Origin: an uncultured Gemmatimonadales bacterium | Lineage (GTDB): Bacteria > Gemmatimonadota > Gemmatimonadetes > JACCXV01 > JAHWKZ01 | Direction: 5' to 3' | Length of the DNA stretch: 8,887 nt | Assembly (NCBI GenBank): GCA_947259315.1 | Contig: CAMYLR010000025.1 | Location: 1 to 8,887, forward strand | Shown here: positions 2,144 through 8,887 of the stretch, in pieces | Numbering within the stretch: the first letter of the stretch is position 1 | How the letters are laid out: each line of letters starts with the position of its first letter | Translations under genes and position numbers: made by a program | Notes under the pieces: generated by a model | Databases searched by the model: none | The model's input: only the letters and a program-made list of their open reading frames with translations | Told to the model about the DNA's origin: nothing

Positions 2144-4590
2144 CTAGTCGGTGGGCTGCTCCTCGCCGATCCCGAACAGCCGCTCGTCGAACTTGAGGCC
2201 GATGTGGAAGTAGAAACCGTGGTCGGTGGCGATCGTGTCGGCCAGGTCGTCCTCGCTGAAGCCGAACAGGTTGTAGCCCGCCGCCAACCGCAGGTTGTTG
2301 GCCAGGATGAAGCCGGCCTCGAGACCGAGCCCCCACTGCGCCTGGCCGACTCCGCTGGTGAACAGCGAGCGGCCCATGACGCCGAGGTCGAGGCGGTTCG
2401 ACAGGTCGACCGTCGAGCGGATCGAGAACAGCGTTGCATCGGTGTCCGTGTCGACGCCGTCCAAGCGATCGGTGCTGAACTTGGTCGCCAGACGGCTGTT
2501 GAGCGTCCACCGGTCGGTCGGCTTGTAGCTCGCGTGAGTCGACAGGATGTGCGCCGTGCTGCGCGCCGCTAAGCGGGTCGGACCGACGCCGTTGTCGCGT
2601 TCGTACTTGTTTTCGTAACGCGCCAGCGCGTTCCAACGGTTGCCCTGCGTCTGGCGCCACGCCAACCCGAGACGCGTCCGCTCGTAGAGGCTCTGATCGA
2701 AGAACGTGCTCCACGACGTCTGGCCGAGGAATGTCCAGTCGCGGTCGAGCTTGCGGGCAAAGCCACCGGTCACGAACAGCTGATCCTGAAGCCGGCCGAG
2801 GCGATACTCGATCCGTCCGGTGGCCTTCATCGACGGGCTCCGCGTGTACTCGAGCGCCGTCGCGACCGCCGTCGACTCGTTCGGGTTCTCGCCCTCGATC
2901 GGATTCAACCGCTCGAACGAGAGGTCGAGCCGCAACCCGTCACCGATCGTCCACCGGTTGGCCAGACCGATCGCCGCGTACGCCTCACGACCGTCAAACG
3001 CGTCGGCGGCCCGGTACTCGGCGAACAGATCGGCCGTCTTGAACAGGGCGCTGCGCAATCCGAACAAGGTCTGGTTCTGACGCTGACCCTGGTTGAGCGC
3101 GTACGGACCGGCGAACGACGAGATGAACTCGTGGCGCGCATACAGTTCCGTATTCTCATTCAATCGGTAGTCGCCGCCGACGATCGCCTGCCACTGATCG
3201 ATGCGATCGAGATCCTGATTGAGCTCGCCGAACACTGACAGCGGATCGGCAAGGCGAGCACGCAGTCGCGCGTTGATGCTATTCGTCTCGTTGGGCGTCA
3301 CACCCTCTGTCAACGAGCTGGCCGGCATCGTCGTCTCACGCGCGTAGAGATAGCCGAGCTCGAGGTCGAAGCGACTGTTGATCGCCTGTTGCAGCGTCAG
3401 CTGCGCGCCGCGACGATCGCCACCGGTGCGACGGTCCTCGGTCGCCAGTACTTCACCGACCAGCGTCGTCCGGTCTCCGAGCGCGGCCCGACCGCGGATC
3501 CCGATCTCGTTCCGCCCGGCGCCAAACCCGGCGGTGCGGTTAAAGAAGTCGACATCGGTTCGCGCCGCGAAGGCGTTGATATCGAGACGCGGGGTCCGGT
3601 GCTGGACCTCGATCCGCTGGGCGTCGCCGGCGAGCTGATCGGAGCTGTCAGAAGCCGCGTACTCGACGATCACCCGCGTGTTGTCGGTCACGTCGATTGC
3701 GGCGTTGACGCTCCACAGGTCGAGCTCGCCAAACGGGTTCTCGTCACGGGTGATCGAGCCGCCCAGCTCGACGCGGTCAAACGGCCGCACCGTCACGGCG
3801 CTGCCGATCGTCCAGAAGTTGTCGCCACCCTGCTCGACCTCGTACGACACCCGGATCGTGATCGGGTTGAGGTCGCGGTCGATACTCGGAATGGGTTGCT
3901 TGAAGATCAATCGACCGGTCAGCGGCTCGACGGAGTAATCGACGAAGCGCGTCATCGGCTCGATCTTGAGAATCACGTCGGGGTGGTTCCGATCACGGGT
4001 CACGATCTCGACGCGCTCGCTGTTGATCAGACCTTCCGGACGAGTGAGCGAGTACGGACCCGAAATCCCCTGACCCGGGAACTCGTCGACGATGAGACCC
4101 GACGAGCCGCGGCTGACGAACGTGTCAAACGCACCGCTATCCCACTCGATGTGGCTCTGAACACCGTTGAGCGAGCGGTAGTAGGCGCCCAGCGTACGCA
4201 CATCGGTCGCCGCCGGCGTCGTGATGTCGCCAAACTGGACATATGACGGGCCGCGCTCGAGCCGGGCGTAGAACCGACTGTTGCTTTGGGCGTCGAACCG
4301 CTTGATCGAGGCGTCGCCGTATACCGGGTAGAGCTCATCCGGACGGATATCGCGGAACAGTCGCGTCCGGGCGTCCCGCTCGGAGTCGTAACGCAGCGTC
4401 AACAAGATGTCGTTGCCCAGCTCGCCCTTCATGAAGACCGCGCCGCGGGCCCCACCCTGCCAGGCGTCATCCGGGTCGCCGAACGCGAAGTCGGAGAGCT
4501 GGTCCTCGAATCGATCGTCCACAAGCAGACCCGGGTTCGACCGGAAGTCGATCCGGCCCTCGAGCACGCCAGCGATGATGAACGGCATCG
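2144..4590 (-). other. C-terminal outer-membrane beta-barrel region of the giant protein
   Basis: About 800 residues consist of many short alternating polar/hydrophobic strands with aromatic girdle residues separated by charged turns. Examples are FDLELGYLYARE, TELYARHEFIS, LRLDLSFERL, ATGRIEYRLGRL, RTRLGLAWRQTQ and LRLAAGYNLFGF. The last strand GFYFHIGLKF ends in Phe like a BAM-recognised beta-signal, but DERLFGIGEEQPTD follows it. I see no TonB-dependent-receptor plug domain. The inferred role is to anchor the N-terminal repeats in the outer membrane. Whether it also exports them, as an autotransporter does, is not shown. Confidence 0.75.
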
Positions 4591-7500
4591 GTGGCACGAT
4601 CGGTGGCAGCTCTTCGGCCCGCGCAGTCTGGCTGGCCGCGAACCGCAGCGCGGGCCGGTTCATCATCTCCACCGGGACGATCAGCTCGAGCTCGGCCTCG
4701 CTGTCGAGGACGGAGAGCTGGACGCCCGGTTGGCTAGCGTCGAGGTCATGTTCAACCAAGCGTGTCGCCGTCGCCATGACCGTAACCGGGACCCGCGGCG
4801 TGTACTGCGCTGGAACCACACCCCACGGAAGAGCCGCCAGCGCGCGTCGTGCCTCCGCTGACGTCAGCGGCGGCTGTTCGATGGGTTGACGATCGCGGAT
4901 GTGCGGGATCGAGGAGTGCGTCGGCAATCCTTCGAACTGTTGGGCGGCATTGGCCGCAGCGTTGTTCGCATCGCTCGCCTTCCGGCGCGCGTAGACCGCC
5001 GCGATGACATCCGGGTGGCGCACACCAACGCCGAAGTCGGCGCGGAAGAGCTCGCCCTTCTTGATGTCCGCGAATCGAGTCGTCAGATCGCCACGCTGGC
5101 GATTGTCGAGGAACATGAGCTCCCCACCGACCGGCAGCGTCGTCGGGTCGATCTTGATGACGTGGAGACGCGGGCTGACGCCGACGAATGTGAAATTGCC
5201 CTCGTTGTCGGTGACCGCCGACGTGCCGTCCTCCATCCAGATCCGGATGCCCGGCACACCGAGGCCGTCGTTCGCCAATGCCGGATCGTCGCTGCCACAA
5301 TCATCGCAGCGGAGGAACACCTTACCGGTGACGATCCCCTCATCGTTGAACAACCCAGCCGTTACGCGGAGGGTCGCCGTCGCGATGTTCGACGTCACGC
5401 CGGATAGCACGCTCACTGCGTTCGCCATGTTGACTGCGTCACCGAGCGGCGTGCCGGCACCGATCTGAACTCGATACGTGACGTTCGTCAAACCATTCTC
5501 GCGAATCGTGCCAACCTGGAACGCGAGGGTTCCCTCGCCGTCCGTCGTTGGATCGTCGGCTGCGTTGCCGTTGACGCGGGTCGAACCTTCCAGGTACACG
5601 AGCCCGGTCGGCAACACGTCGAGCGCGACCACGTTCTCGATCGGCGCGTCCGTCGGATTGCTCACCGAGATTCTGTACTCGACGAAGTCACCCAGGGCGG
5701 CCTCCGAGCGCGAGACCTGTTTGTCGACTCTCAACACCTCGCCTGACGGTGTGGAGTCCGGTACCACCGGAGTCGGACCCGAAACGTCGGTGTCGTTCTC
5801 GGGATTCTGATCGTCGTCGTTTGAGACGCTGACCTCGTTGGTCACAGAGTCACCGACATTCTCATCGATCATGACGGTCACGATCAGCGTTGCCGTTTCA
5901 CCCGGCTCAATCGGACCCGGGTTCTCACACGTCAGAACCTGATCGTTGACAGTGCAAAGCGCGCCAGGCGTTGGAGCGAATCCTTCGCCCTCGACCTTTA
6001 CCACCGTGACGCCGACCGGGAGCGTGTCGACAACCATGATCGGGCTCGTCGTCGGTGTTGCCCCCACATTGGTGATCGTGATCGTGAACGTGCCCTCGGT
6101 ATCGATCTGGAACTGTTCGTCGGCTGTCTTCTCGATCGACAAGTCGACGTCACTCACTCGGGTCACGACGCGGCTCTCGGGGTCTGAGCCGTCATTGTTA
6201 TCTGGGGCCGGGTCCGGCGACGGCGATGATGCAGTTGCTACGTTCTCGAACTCACCACTCGTGGTAATGAGTGCGCGGACGGAGTCCACGACCGACTCAC
6301 CGGCCGCCAAGGTCGAGATCGCTGGCCATGTGATAATGCCACCGGCATGCATGCCGCCACGTGACGCCGATACGAAATCGATGCCGGTGGGCAGATCGTC
6401 GGTTACGACGACATCGGCCGCGTCGCCAGGCCCGAGGTTCCTGGTCGTGATGACGTAGGTGATCGTGTCGCCAGCGGCTGCCGTCGTGGGACCGCTCTTG
6501 GTGGTTACAACATCCGCCGGTAAACCAACGATTGTGATTACGGAATCGGACACCTCGGGGTTGTTGTCATCTGAGGACCACGTCGCAATCGCCACATTCT
6601 CGTACGTCCCAACCGCTGGCAGCACCACACGCACGAAGTAGACGACGGCGGCAGAGCCAGGCGCGAGTTGATCGATCGTCGGCCATTCGATCACACCGTT
6701 TGAAAGCACGCCCTTGCCCGCGTCAACGAACACAGCTCCTTGCGGCAGCTCGTCGGTAACGGTGACGCTCTGCGCCGTGCCCCCACCGCTGTTTGTCAGT
6801 GTGATCGTATAGGTGATCGTGTCGCCGACCGAGGCCATCGCTGGACCGGTCTTGACGACCACCAGGTTCGGCGGCTGCACTGGTGGTGGCGGCGGAGGTG
6901 GCGTCACTGCCAACTGGAAGCCCACGTCGGTCGCAGCGCCGGTGCCACCAGCTGGCACGGTGACCGTCTGCGGATCGTTTCCGGTAGTCAGCGTCGAGCT
7001 GGCCGGGTCGTTTACGTCCGCCGTTACGTCGCCGGCCGGGACACTCGCCGAGTAGTCGCCGTTCACGTCGGTCGTGACCGTAAATGGAGGCCCGCTCGAA
7101 GGCGTCAGCAGCACGGTGACGCCGACCAGGTCGGGCTCGCCCGGATCCTGGATACCGTCAGCGTCAACGTCTCGGAAGACGTGACCGATAATCGTGCCGG
7201 CGCCCGGCGGGAACTGGAAGCCCACGTCGGTCGCGGTACCTGCACCGCCGGCGGGGACGCTCACCGTTTGCGGATCGTTGCCGGTGGTGAGCGTCGAGCC
7301 CGCCGGATCGGTGACATCGACATTAATGTCGCCGGCTGGAACGCTGGACGAGTAGTCGCCGTTCACATCGGTGGTAACCGTGATCGGCAAGCTGAATAGC
7401 GGCGTCAGAACAACGTCGACGCCGGCCAGGTCGGGCTCGCCTGGATCCTGGACGCCGTTACCGTTGGTATCACCGAACACATGACCGCTGATCGTGCCGG

Positions 7501-8326
7501 TCGCCGGCGGGAACTGGAACCCGACATCGGTTGCGGTGCCAGTACCGCCCGCGGGGACGCTCACCGTTTGCGGATCGTTGCCGGTGGTGAGCGTGCCCCC
7601 CGCAGGGTCGGTAACATCGACATCGACGTCGCCGGCTGGAACCGTGCTCGAGTAATCGCCGTTCGCATCGGTAGTAACCGTGATCGGTGGGCCACTGGAT
7701 GGCGTCAGCACGACATCCACGCCGGCGAGATCGGGCTCGCCCGGATCCTGAACGCCGTCGCCGTCGGTGTCGCCAAACACATGCCCGTTGATCGTGCCGG
7801 TGGTCGGCGGGAACTGGTAGCCGACATCAGTGGCAGTTCCTGTACCGCCGATTGGTACGATGACGGTCTGTGGATCATTAGCGGTCGTGAGTATCGCGCC
7901 CACCGGATCGACGACATCGGCGTCAACATCGCCGGCCGGGATGCTAGAGCTATAGTCGCCGTTGACATCGGTGGCCACCGTGATCGGTGCACCACCGCCA
8001 GCCGGTGTCAGCACAACATCAACGCCAGCCAGATCGGGCTCGCCCGCACCCTGGAAGCCGTCACCGTCGATGTCCTCGAAGACGTGGCCGGTGATCGTGC
8101 CACTGAACTGGAACCCGACGTCCGTCGCCGTGCCCGTACCACCCACCGGGACGGTGACGGTCTGCGGATCGTTGGCCGTCGTCAGCGTACCGCCTGCGGG
8201 ATCGGTGACGTCGACGTCTACGTCGCCGGCCGGCCAGGTCGGGCTCGCCGGCGCCTTGGACACCATCGCCGTCCACATCGTCGAACACGTGCCCGGTGAT
8301 CGTACCCTGGAACTGGAACCCGACAT
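2144..8326 (-). CDS. Giant SdrD_B/DUF11 repeat protein with C-terminal outer-membrane beta-barrel (main part)
   Basis: This is the main part of a predicted outer-membrane-anchored surface protein. The open frame spans 2060 residues, but roughly its first 33 are an out-of-frame reading of the third repeat. Genuine sequence begins near 8232 at PAGDVDVDV, and the ATG at 8326 has no ribosome site or signal peptide, so it is not a real start. In order, the protein carries the rest of repeat 3, repeats 4-7, seven prolines, four DUF11-like domains, a diverged SdrD-like domain, a linker, and a barrel-like region of about 800 residues. That region has alternating amphipathic strands, contains DELYPVYGDAS and FYARLERGPSYVQFGD, and ends near the C-terminus with GFYFHIGLKF plus 14 residues. 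From memory, similar ends occur in giant DUF11 proteins of Gram-negative bacteria. The Ig-like repeats suggest a stalk or adhesin role, but ligand and function are unknown. A hairpin follows the TAG stop. Confidence 0.88.
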   Translation of the reverse strand: MSGSSSRVRSPGTCSTMWTAMVSKAPASPTWPAGDVDVDVTDPAGGTLTTANDPQTVTVPVGGTGTATDVGFQFSGTITGHVFEDIDGDGFQGAGEPDLAGVDVVLTPAGGGAPITVATDVNGDYSSSIPAGDVDADVVDPVGAILTTANDPQTVIVPIGGTGTATDVGYQFPPTTGTINGHVFGDTDGDGVQDPGEPDLAGVDVVLTPSSGPPITVTTDANGDYSSTVPAGDVDVDVTDPAGGTLTTGNDPQTVSVPAGGTGTATDVGFQFPPATGTISGHVFGDTNGNGVQDPGEPDLAGVDVVLTPLFSLPITVTTDVNGDYSSSVPAGDINVDVTDPAGSTLTTGNDPQTVSVPAGGAGTATDVGFQFPPGAGTIIGHVFRDVDADGIQDPGEPDLVGVTVLLTPSSGPPFTVTTDVNGDYSASVPAGDVTADVNDPASSTLTTGNDPQTVTVPAGGTGAATDVGFQLAVTPPPPPPPVQPPNLVVVKTGPAMASVGDTITYTITLTNSGGGTAQSVTVTDELPQGAVFVDAGKGVLSNGVIEWPTIDQLAPGSAAVVYFVRVVLPAVGTYENVAIATWSSDDNNPEVSDSVITIVGLPADVVTTKSGPTTAAAGDTITYVITTRNLGPGDAADVVVTDDLPTGIDFVSASRGGMHAGGIITWPAISTLAAGESVVDSVRALITTSGEFENVATASSPSPDPAPDNNDGSDPESRVVTRVSDVDLSIEKTADEQFQIDTEGTFTITITNVGATPTTSPIMVVDTLPVGVTVVKVEGEGFAPTPGALCTVNDQVLTCENPGPIEPGETATLIVTVMIDENVGDSVTNEVSVSNDDDQNPENDTDVSGPTPVVPDSTPSGEVLRVDKQVSRSEAALGDFVEYRISVSNPTDAPIENVVALDVLPTGLVYLEGSTRVNGNAADDPTTDGEGTLAFQVGTIRENGLTNVTYRVQIGAGTPLGDAVNMANAVSVLSGVTSNIATATLRVTAGLFNDEGIVTGKVFLRCDDCGSDDPALANDGLGVPGIRIWMEDGTSAVTDNEGNFTFVGVSPRLHVIKIDPTTLPVGGELMFLDNRQRGDLTTRFADIKKGELFRADFGVGVRHPDVIAAVYARRKASDANNAAANAAQQFEGLPTHSSIPHIRDRQPIEQPPLTSAEARRALAALPWGVVPAQYTPRVPVTVMATATRLVEHDLDASQPGVQLSVLDSEAELELIVPVEMMNRPALRFAASQTARAEELPPIVPPMPFIIAGVLEGRIDFRSNPGLLVDDRFEDQLSDFAFGDPDDAWQGGARGAVFMKGELGNDILLTLRYDSERDARTRLFRDIRPDELYPVYGDASIKRFDAQSNSRFYARLERGPSYVQFGDITTPAATDVRTLGAYYRSLNGVQSHIEWDSGAFDTFVSRGSSGLIVDEFPGQGISGPYSLTRPEGLINSERVEIVTRDRNHPDVILKIEPMTRFVDYSVEPLTGRLIFKQPIPSIDRDLNPITIRVSYEVEQGGDNFWTIGSAVTVRPFDRVELGGSITRDENPFGELDLWSVNAAIDVTDNTRVIVEYAASDSSDQLAGDAQRIEVQHRTPRLDINAFAARTDVDFFNRTAGFGAGRNEIGIRGRAALGDRTTLVGEVLATEDRRTGGDRRGAQLTLQQAINSRFDLELGYLYARETTMPASSLTEGVTPNETNSINARLRARLADPLSVFGELNQDLDRIDQWQAIVGGDYRLNENTELYARHEFISSFAGPYALNQGQRQNQTLFGLRSALFKTADLFAEYRAADAFDGREAYAAIGLANRWTIGDGLRLDLSFERLNPIEGENPNESTAVATALEYTRSPSMKATGRIEYRLGRLQDQLFVTGGFARKLDRDWTFLGQTSWSTFFDQSLYERTRLGLAWRQTQGNRWNALARYENKYERDNGVGPTRLAARSTAHILSTHASYKPTDRWTLNSRLATKFSTDRLDGVDTDTDATLFSIRSTVDLSNRLDLGVMGRSLFTSGVGQAQWGLGLEAGFILANNLRLAAGYNLFGFSEDDLADTIATDHGFYFHIGLKFDERLFGIGEEQPTD
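5020..5345 (-). other. Diverged SdrD / regulatory-like domain joining the stalk to the barrel
   Basis: After the fourth DUF11 domain the protein reads GIVTGKVFLRCDDCG, then GVPGIRIWMEDGT, VTDNEGNFTFVGVSPRLHVI and TLPVGGEL. This follows the SdrD_B/carboxypeptidase-regulatory-like pattern (G.VF....GV.G..V...DG....T...G.Y.F). Such a domain is, from memory, typical just before the barrel in large DUF11 surface proteins. The usual acidic DxNxNG segment is replaced by a Cys-Asp-Asp-Cys motif at 5297-5308. About 130 residues of linker, rich in Ala, Pro and charged residues, separate it from the barrel. Confidence 0.7.
5360..6875 (-). repeat. Four DUF11-like Ig-fold domains in the giant protein
   Basis: Four successive domains of about 115-130 residues follow the polyproline linker. 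Approximate spans are 6875-6525, 6521-6157, 6153-5766 and 5745-5360. The first three open with a lysine-containing strand (VVVKTGP, VVTTKSGP, SIEKTAD) and the fourth with VDKQVSRSEAA. Each then has a GDTITYTI-like strand, a VTDELPQG / VTDDLPTG / VVDTLPVG / ALDVLPTG motif, and a late NVA/NEVSVS/NAVSV strand, the usual signature of DUF11. The third holds two cysteines nine residues apart (GALCTVNDQVLTCENPG), a plausible disulfide. DUF11 domains are common in large exported bacterial and archaeal surface proteins; no ligand is implied. Confidence 0.88.
6885..6903 (-). other. Polyproline linker between the SdrD_B array and the DUF11 domains
   Basis: The protein reads AVTPPPPPPPVQPPNL here, with seven consecutive prolines. 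It sits exactly where the last SdrD_B unit (DVGFQL) ends and the first DUF11 domain (NLVVVKTGP) begins, so it is probably a stiff spacer between two stalk segments. Confidence 0.85.
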
Positions 8327-8887
8327 CGGTCGCCGTACCCGTGCCGCCCACCGGGACGGTCACGGTCTGCGGATCGTTGGCCGTCGTCAGCGTACCGCCT
8401 GCGGGATCGGTGACGTCGACGGCTACGTCGCCGGCCGGTATGCCACTCGAGTAGTCGCCGTTGGCGTCGGTGGTGACCGTGATCGGTGCGCCCCCACCGG
8501 CCGGCGTCAGGACGACATCGACACCCGCCAGGTCGGGCTCACCCGCACCCTGGGCACCGTCACCATCCACGTCATCGAACACGTGACCGTTGATCGTGCC
8601 TTGGAACTGGAACCCGACATCGGTGGCGGTGCCGGTGCCACCCACCGGTACGGTCACGGTCTGTGGATCGTTGGCCGTCGTCAGCGTGCCGCCTGCGGGA
8701 TCGGTGACGTCGACATCGACATCGCCCGCCGGGATGCCGCTCGAGTAATCGCCGTTGGCATCCGTGGTCACCGTGATCGGCGCGCCACCACCAGCAGGTG
8801 TCAGCACAACATCGACACCTGCCAGGTCGGGCTCACCCGCACCCTGGGCACCGTCACCATCCACGTCATCGAACACATGACCGGTGA
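8061..8887 (-). CDS. Giant SdrD_B-repeat surface protein, upstream fragment (5' end off window, frameshifted)
   Basis: This is the upstream part of a giant repeat-containing surface protein. The frame is open to the window edge, where it reads TGHVFDD, matching the repeat starts further on, so the true start lies outside. It encodes two complete SdrD_B-like units and the first third of another. Each unit opens with GHVFDDVDGDG, continues with GEPDLAGVDVVLTP and NGDYSSGIPAGDV, and ends with TATDVGFQF. The acidic DxDGDG segment resembles the calcium-binding loops of SdrD_B domains, which in known adhesins form rigid surface stalks. Homology stops at about 8234 after GEPDLAG. The frame then runs into an arginine-rich, non-homologous tail of about 57 residues and stops at 8061. 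The same repeat resumes in another frame in the downstream CDS. If the sequence is correct, the product would be truncated before the DUF11 and barrel domains. That these are two halves of one gene is very likely; whether the break is biological is unknown. Confidence 0.85.
   Translation of the reverse strand, partial: TGHVFDDVDGDGAQGAGEPDLAGVDVVLTPAGGGAPITVTTDANGDYSSGIPAGDVDVDVTDPAGGTLTTANDPQTVTVPVGGTGTATDVGFQFQGTINGHVFDDVDGDGAQGAGEPDLAGVDVVLTPAGGGAPITVTTDANGDYSSGIPAGDVAVDVTDPAGGTLTTANDPQTVTVPVGGTGTATDVGFQFQGTITGHVFDDVDGDGVQGAGEPDLAGRRRRRRRHRSRRRYADDGQRSADRHRPGGWYGHGDGRRVPVQWHDHRPRLRGHRR
8093..8304 (-). other. Repeat unit 3 with an 89-bp frame-breaking deletion
   Basis: This unit spans 205 bp where its neighbours span 294-303 bp. 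Aligned to the preceding unit, the bases equivalent to 8439-8527 are missing. The join lies at about 8233, where GCCGGCCGG is followed directly by CCAGGTCGGG. About 30 residues (VDVVLTP through SSGIP) are lost, and because 89 is not a multiple of three the frame shifts. Both flanks are otherwise normal repeat sequence. The sequence shows the deletion directly; its cause (mutation, phase variation or an assembly slip in near-identical repeats) cannot be decided here. Confidence 0.9.

Follow-up and report, generated by a model that had tools for sequence, protein, structure and literature searches.

For small variable segments of bacterial genomes, a frequent explanation is slippage at short repeats (PMC2884548). 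Recombination by RecA has a threshold of about 30 bp of repeat, as cited in the same paper. Pneumococcal capsule genes phase-vary through spontaneous duplications (Waite et al. 2001 and 2003, as cited in PMC4022640). The locus compared here with these systems lies on a contig of a scaffolded draft genome, probably a metagenome bin of a Gemmatimonadota bacterium as judged by the nearest named homologue, and the whole contig of 8,887 bp is the window that was analysed. It encodes a giant surface protein with SdrD_B repeats, DUF11 domains and an outer-membrane beta-barrel, and Pfam, AlphaFold and Foldseek together find all three domain types. One repeat unit is too short, and the reading frame is broken there. 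The original prediction named a very recent event, an ON/OFF switch and an assembly slip as possible causes. The last of these is favoured: the 89-bp lesion is very probably an assembly artefact, in which a segment would have been lost where pieces of sequence were joined. The switch is unsupported, and the same lesion occurs in genes without repeats. The living gene is probably intact in the organism.

The short repeat unit and the frame break

The units of the array start at 8882, 8588, 8294, 8089, 7786, 7486, and 7186 on the minus strand, with spacings of 294, 294, 205, 303, 300, and 300 bp. Unit 3 falls short by 294-205 = 89 bp, which is not divisible by 3, and the length change within the repeat tract is thus out of frame. 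The upstream frame, read from 8885, soon meets a stop codon, while the downstream frame runs uninterrupted for 2,027 codons, from 8227 to its stop at 2144-2146. A codon-usage HMM that is blind to repeats finds the change of frame at 8228-8230. The spacings, the frameshift by loss of 89 bp, the early end of the upstream translation, and the some 2000 intact codons with DUF11 domains and barrel beyond the break had all been described in the original prediction, and each agrees with the unit starts, the repeat alignment, the codon HMM, or the domain searches. Its coordinates for the lesion, 8093-8445, are a loose fit to the short unit. The features are collected in Table 1.

Table 1. Features of the window and of the broken conserved genes elsewhere in the assembly
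Feature	Location	Strand	Evidence and remarks
Short repeat unit 3	8090..8294	-	205 bp; neighbours 294 and 303; repeat alignment
Join with about 89 bp missing, +1 frame change	8229..8234	-	Repeat alignment; codon HMM
Nonsense tail of upstream frame, 56 residues, stop at 8061-8063	8061..8228	-	
SdrD_B units 1 and 2, intact, N-terminal side, upstream frame	8295..8882	-	Array runs off contig end
SdrD_B units 4 to 7, downstream frame	6912..8089	-	
60-bp identical pair, longest exact repeat of array	8157..8216 and 8362..8421		205 bp apart
Four DUF11-type stretches	5363..6871	-	Pfam PF01345 (4 stretches); TIGR01451
C-terminal outer-membrane beta-barrel and stop codon	2144..3865	-	AlphaFold model, Foldseek, 25-sequence alignment; conserved region 2147-4846
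rho	C23:10660-11831		Profile 2-265 and 288-414, different frames
hflX	C23:3486-4437		Profile 16-186 and 201-350; P-loop falls in gap
murD	C11:135314-136580 (L278 = G000:C11:120001-140000, 15314-16580)		Profile 1-132 and 150-440; about 50 bp missing
4-hydroxybenzoyl-CoA-reductase-like gene	C4, near 119019		Profile 1-257 and 313-746
Cyclase/arylformamidase-like gene	C11, near 96508		Pfam 1-57 and 102-142

The part downstream of the break has four SdrD_B repeats, four DUF11 stretches, and the outer-membrane beta-barrel. AlphaFold models the C-terminal ~560 residues as the barrel with a mean pLDDT of 75.7 and a pTM of 0.62. Foldseek matches it to SlpA, Cir, LptD and similar proteins with low TM-scores of 0.15-0.26 by query length, which supports the predicted fold class of the barrel and no particular relative. 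The right end of the contig lies inside the array, and the N-terminus of the gene is missing from the assembly. Rescue by +1 ribosomal frameshifting at the break would still leave the domain incomplete. A search for RNA features found none. The remainder of the window contains an amidohydrolase gene (797-2122), with best matches of only about 30-40% identity in near relatives, and an adjoining 197-aa minus-strand ORF (207-800) with no Pfam or NCBIfam match.

Units 1 and 2 (8295-8882) have a nearly unchanged amino-acid sequence while their DNA drifts, with 0, 2, and 29 differences at first, second, and third codon positions. Compared with unit 2, the halves of unit 3 have 0/1/10 and 1/2/8 differences at the same positions. 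Since these differences are mostly at third positions (18 of 22), unit 3 is, by its codon pattern, a formerly complete coding unit that was under strong purifying selection. The flanks on either side of the join have no decay. The absence of nonsense mutations from the 2,027 codons limits the age of the lesion to about 0.4-2.4% neutral divergence, a range that depends on the assumed indel rate. Undecayed flanks and a low maximum age would fit a very recent event and an artefact equally well.

A real and very recent deletion of 89 bp, by short-homology slippage or illegitimate recombination, could have inactivated the gene in the sequenced population too lately for decay to follow. The recent coding state of unit 3 and the low maximum age are consistent with it, and changes of this kind are often put down to slippage between short repeats. 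The micro-homology GCCGG, put forward in the original prediction, gives a match of 5 bases at the join provided that the missing right flank was similar to units 5 or 6. It shrinks to 1 bp with units 1, 2, and 4, which are the nearest, and to 0 with unit 7. Hairpin-aided slippage was also considered, and the lost segment has no consistent extra stability. A deletion of this kind is unlikely: a lesion like this one recurs in murD, rho, and hflX of the assembly, as described below, and the loss of murD should be lethal.

Related arrays and the proposed switch

No orthologue of the gene was found in the genus or family when the locus was compared with related genomes. Homologues of the C-terminal ~900 aa occur in Gemmatimonadota, Balneola, Acinetobacter, Variovorax and others with 31-47% identity. 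The inspected homologues are mostly single uninterrupted ORFs of roughly 1,800-3,200 aa, several of which have signal-peptide-like starts. The exceptions are L043 and L099, which have shorter ORFs, and several others that run off their contigs. All 58 neighbouring spacings counted in related SdrD_B arrays keep the frame, with some spacings of overlapping loci entering the count twice. An array in G118 that appeared to be split consists of two intact tandem paralogues. This locus (L148, G118:C9:99500-113500) has two adjoining, apparently intact large SdrD_B genes with at least 22 and 3 repeats, respectively, spaced by 330 or 333 bp. The junction sequence is absent from the viral contigs searched, and the array DNA has no match in plasmids. 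Plasmid-borne relatives at the protein level are mostly Staphylococcus Sdr proteins.

The original prediction had proposed a repeat-driven phase switch of the giant surface protein. The short unit would be the OFF state, and recombination between neighbouring repeats would remove it and turn the gene ON. The lengths allow this, as 205+89=294 and deletion of the whole short unit stays in frame. The 60-bp exact repeat that flanks the join is above the RecA threshold cited above, and the duplications in pneumococcal capsule genes, as cited there, provide a precedent. Against this, only one state is observed, and the return from ON to OFF would require the rare 89-bp event a second time. The frame is always kept in related arrays, and the type of lesion is assembly-wide and not specific to repeats. 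The proposal follows from arithmetic only, for which no second state, mixture or read evidence was found. There is no positive evidence for a reversible switch, and such a switch is very improbable.

The same lesion in conserved genes of the assembly

An assembly that drops short segments is expected to leave the same lesion in genes that have to be intact. Reads are therefore not indispensable for testing a broken gene in a draft metagenome bin, as the conserved genes of the assembly can be searched for that lesion. The genome has 33 contigs and 2.40 Mb, of which 1.87 Mb was scanned with a two-strand codon HMM, followed by profile searches. The scan detects frame-breaking losses only. At a loose threshold it flagged 61 same-strand frame switches, most of which, on visual inspection, resemble ordinary gene boundaries.

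At least five conserved non-repeat genes are broken by the same lesion, with ~50 to 170 bp missing, a frameshift, and pristine flanks (Table 1). The five were chosen by eye from the flagged switches before the profile test, so that five is a minimum drawn from a selected subset and should not be read as a rate. Further candidate frame breaks lie on C6 near 105620, at L171:4386, and at L286:11172. Compared to the same-genus genome G001, a single clean segment is missing from each of two genes: 67 bp from rho (89% identity) and 59 bp from hflX (84% identity).

murD is the strongest case among the broken genes, because an intact paralogue of rho is present and cells can usually dispense with hflX. 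It is the only copy in the scanned genome, and the other hits score lower and resemble other Mur ligases. Of the two Rho-type terminator genes in this genome, the full-length type is the one broken in the assembly, and the other is the intact paralogue at C6:182841-183995, which scores near 497 bits. G002 and G006 likewise have two.

The comparison with the relatives G001-G006 covered rho, hflX, and murD, and most of these relatives carry the three genes whole. All six have an hflX match above the family cut-off, with the match cut short in G001. The main rho is over the cut-off in G001, G002, G003, and G006. murD is over the cut-off in G002, G003, G005, and G006. The other cases, for any of the three genes, gave no match over the cut-off, which in genomes as fragmented as these does not indicate loss.

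The lesion thus occurs in genes that must stay intact (murD, and also rho and hflX), as is expected of an assembly artefact. A phase-variable gene should have a length change specific to its repeat tract, whereas here five non-repeat genes, rho, hflX, and murD among them, share the change. An artefact is favoured because a loss of the same kind recurs in this assembly, in at least five conserved genes of which murD is one. Since these genes have no repeats, no repeat-driven mechanism is needed.

Assembly structure and comparison with known systems

The contig ends C20 and C9 share an overlap of exactly 99 bp, and runs of N of 2-139 bp occur inside contigs. Both features indicate de Bruijn contigs that were joined into scaffolds, although operator masking could explain some of the N runs. 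The length of an N run is unreliable, as profiles show in two cases. The D-Ala-D-Ala ligase gene ddl has 32 N and about 42 nt missing by its profile, and sucC has 58 N and about 9 nt missing.

The proposed course of events starts with two pieces of sequence that were joined, with about 89 bp lost at the scaffold or contig join. A join over a gap estimated at zero or less would be made without N and could give losses of the type seen. The 89-bp lesion would then belong to the same class as the losses in the five conserved genes. Simple collapse of a de Bruijn repeat is unlikely, as exact matches touching the join reach no more than 21 bp, compared to the 99-bp overlap of the two contig ends. 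A joining error other than collapse must therefore be assumed. Repeat arrays are where real deletions are expected, and this counts against an artefact. Placement of the contig in the wrong bin was considered by tetranucleotide composition: the distance of the window falls slightly beyond the range spanned by 64 chunks of the same genome, and that of its first 6.9 kb is within the range.

The genome is 95.8% complete by its listed estimate and has several gene breaks that are probably false. Claims of pseudogenes or of phase variation from this bin consequently need read support.

Among known systems, the locus resembles the joining errors of draft metagenome bins, which introduce false indels. 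Both have a clean loss of tens of bp, a frameshift, and pristine flanks, and the loss recurs in unrelated conserved genes. The locus differs in that one instance lies within a tandem repeat, which gives it a look of biology. A literature search on repeat frame breaks in metagenome assemblies returned nothing useful. SdrD_B and DUF11 surface proteins with a C-terminal barrel share the conserved C-terminal ~900 aa with this protein; in contrast, the homologues inspected are not broken in this way, and most are without a long SdrD_B array. The phase variation of the pneumococcal capsule by tandem duplication (Waite et al., as cited in PMC4022640) is similar in its out-of-frame change of tens to hundreds of bp in coding sequence, which recombination of the repeats can in principle reverse. 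The capsule system involves a duplication, whereas the present locus has a loss in a single state and is known from sequence alone.
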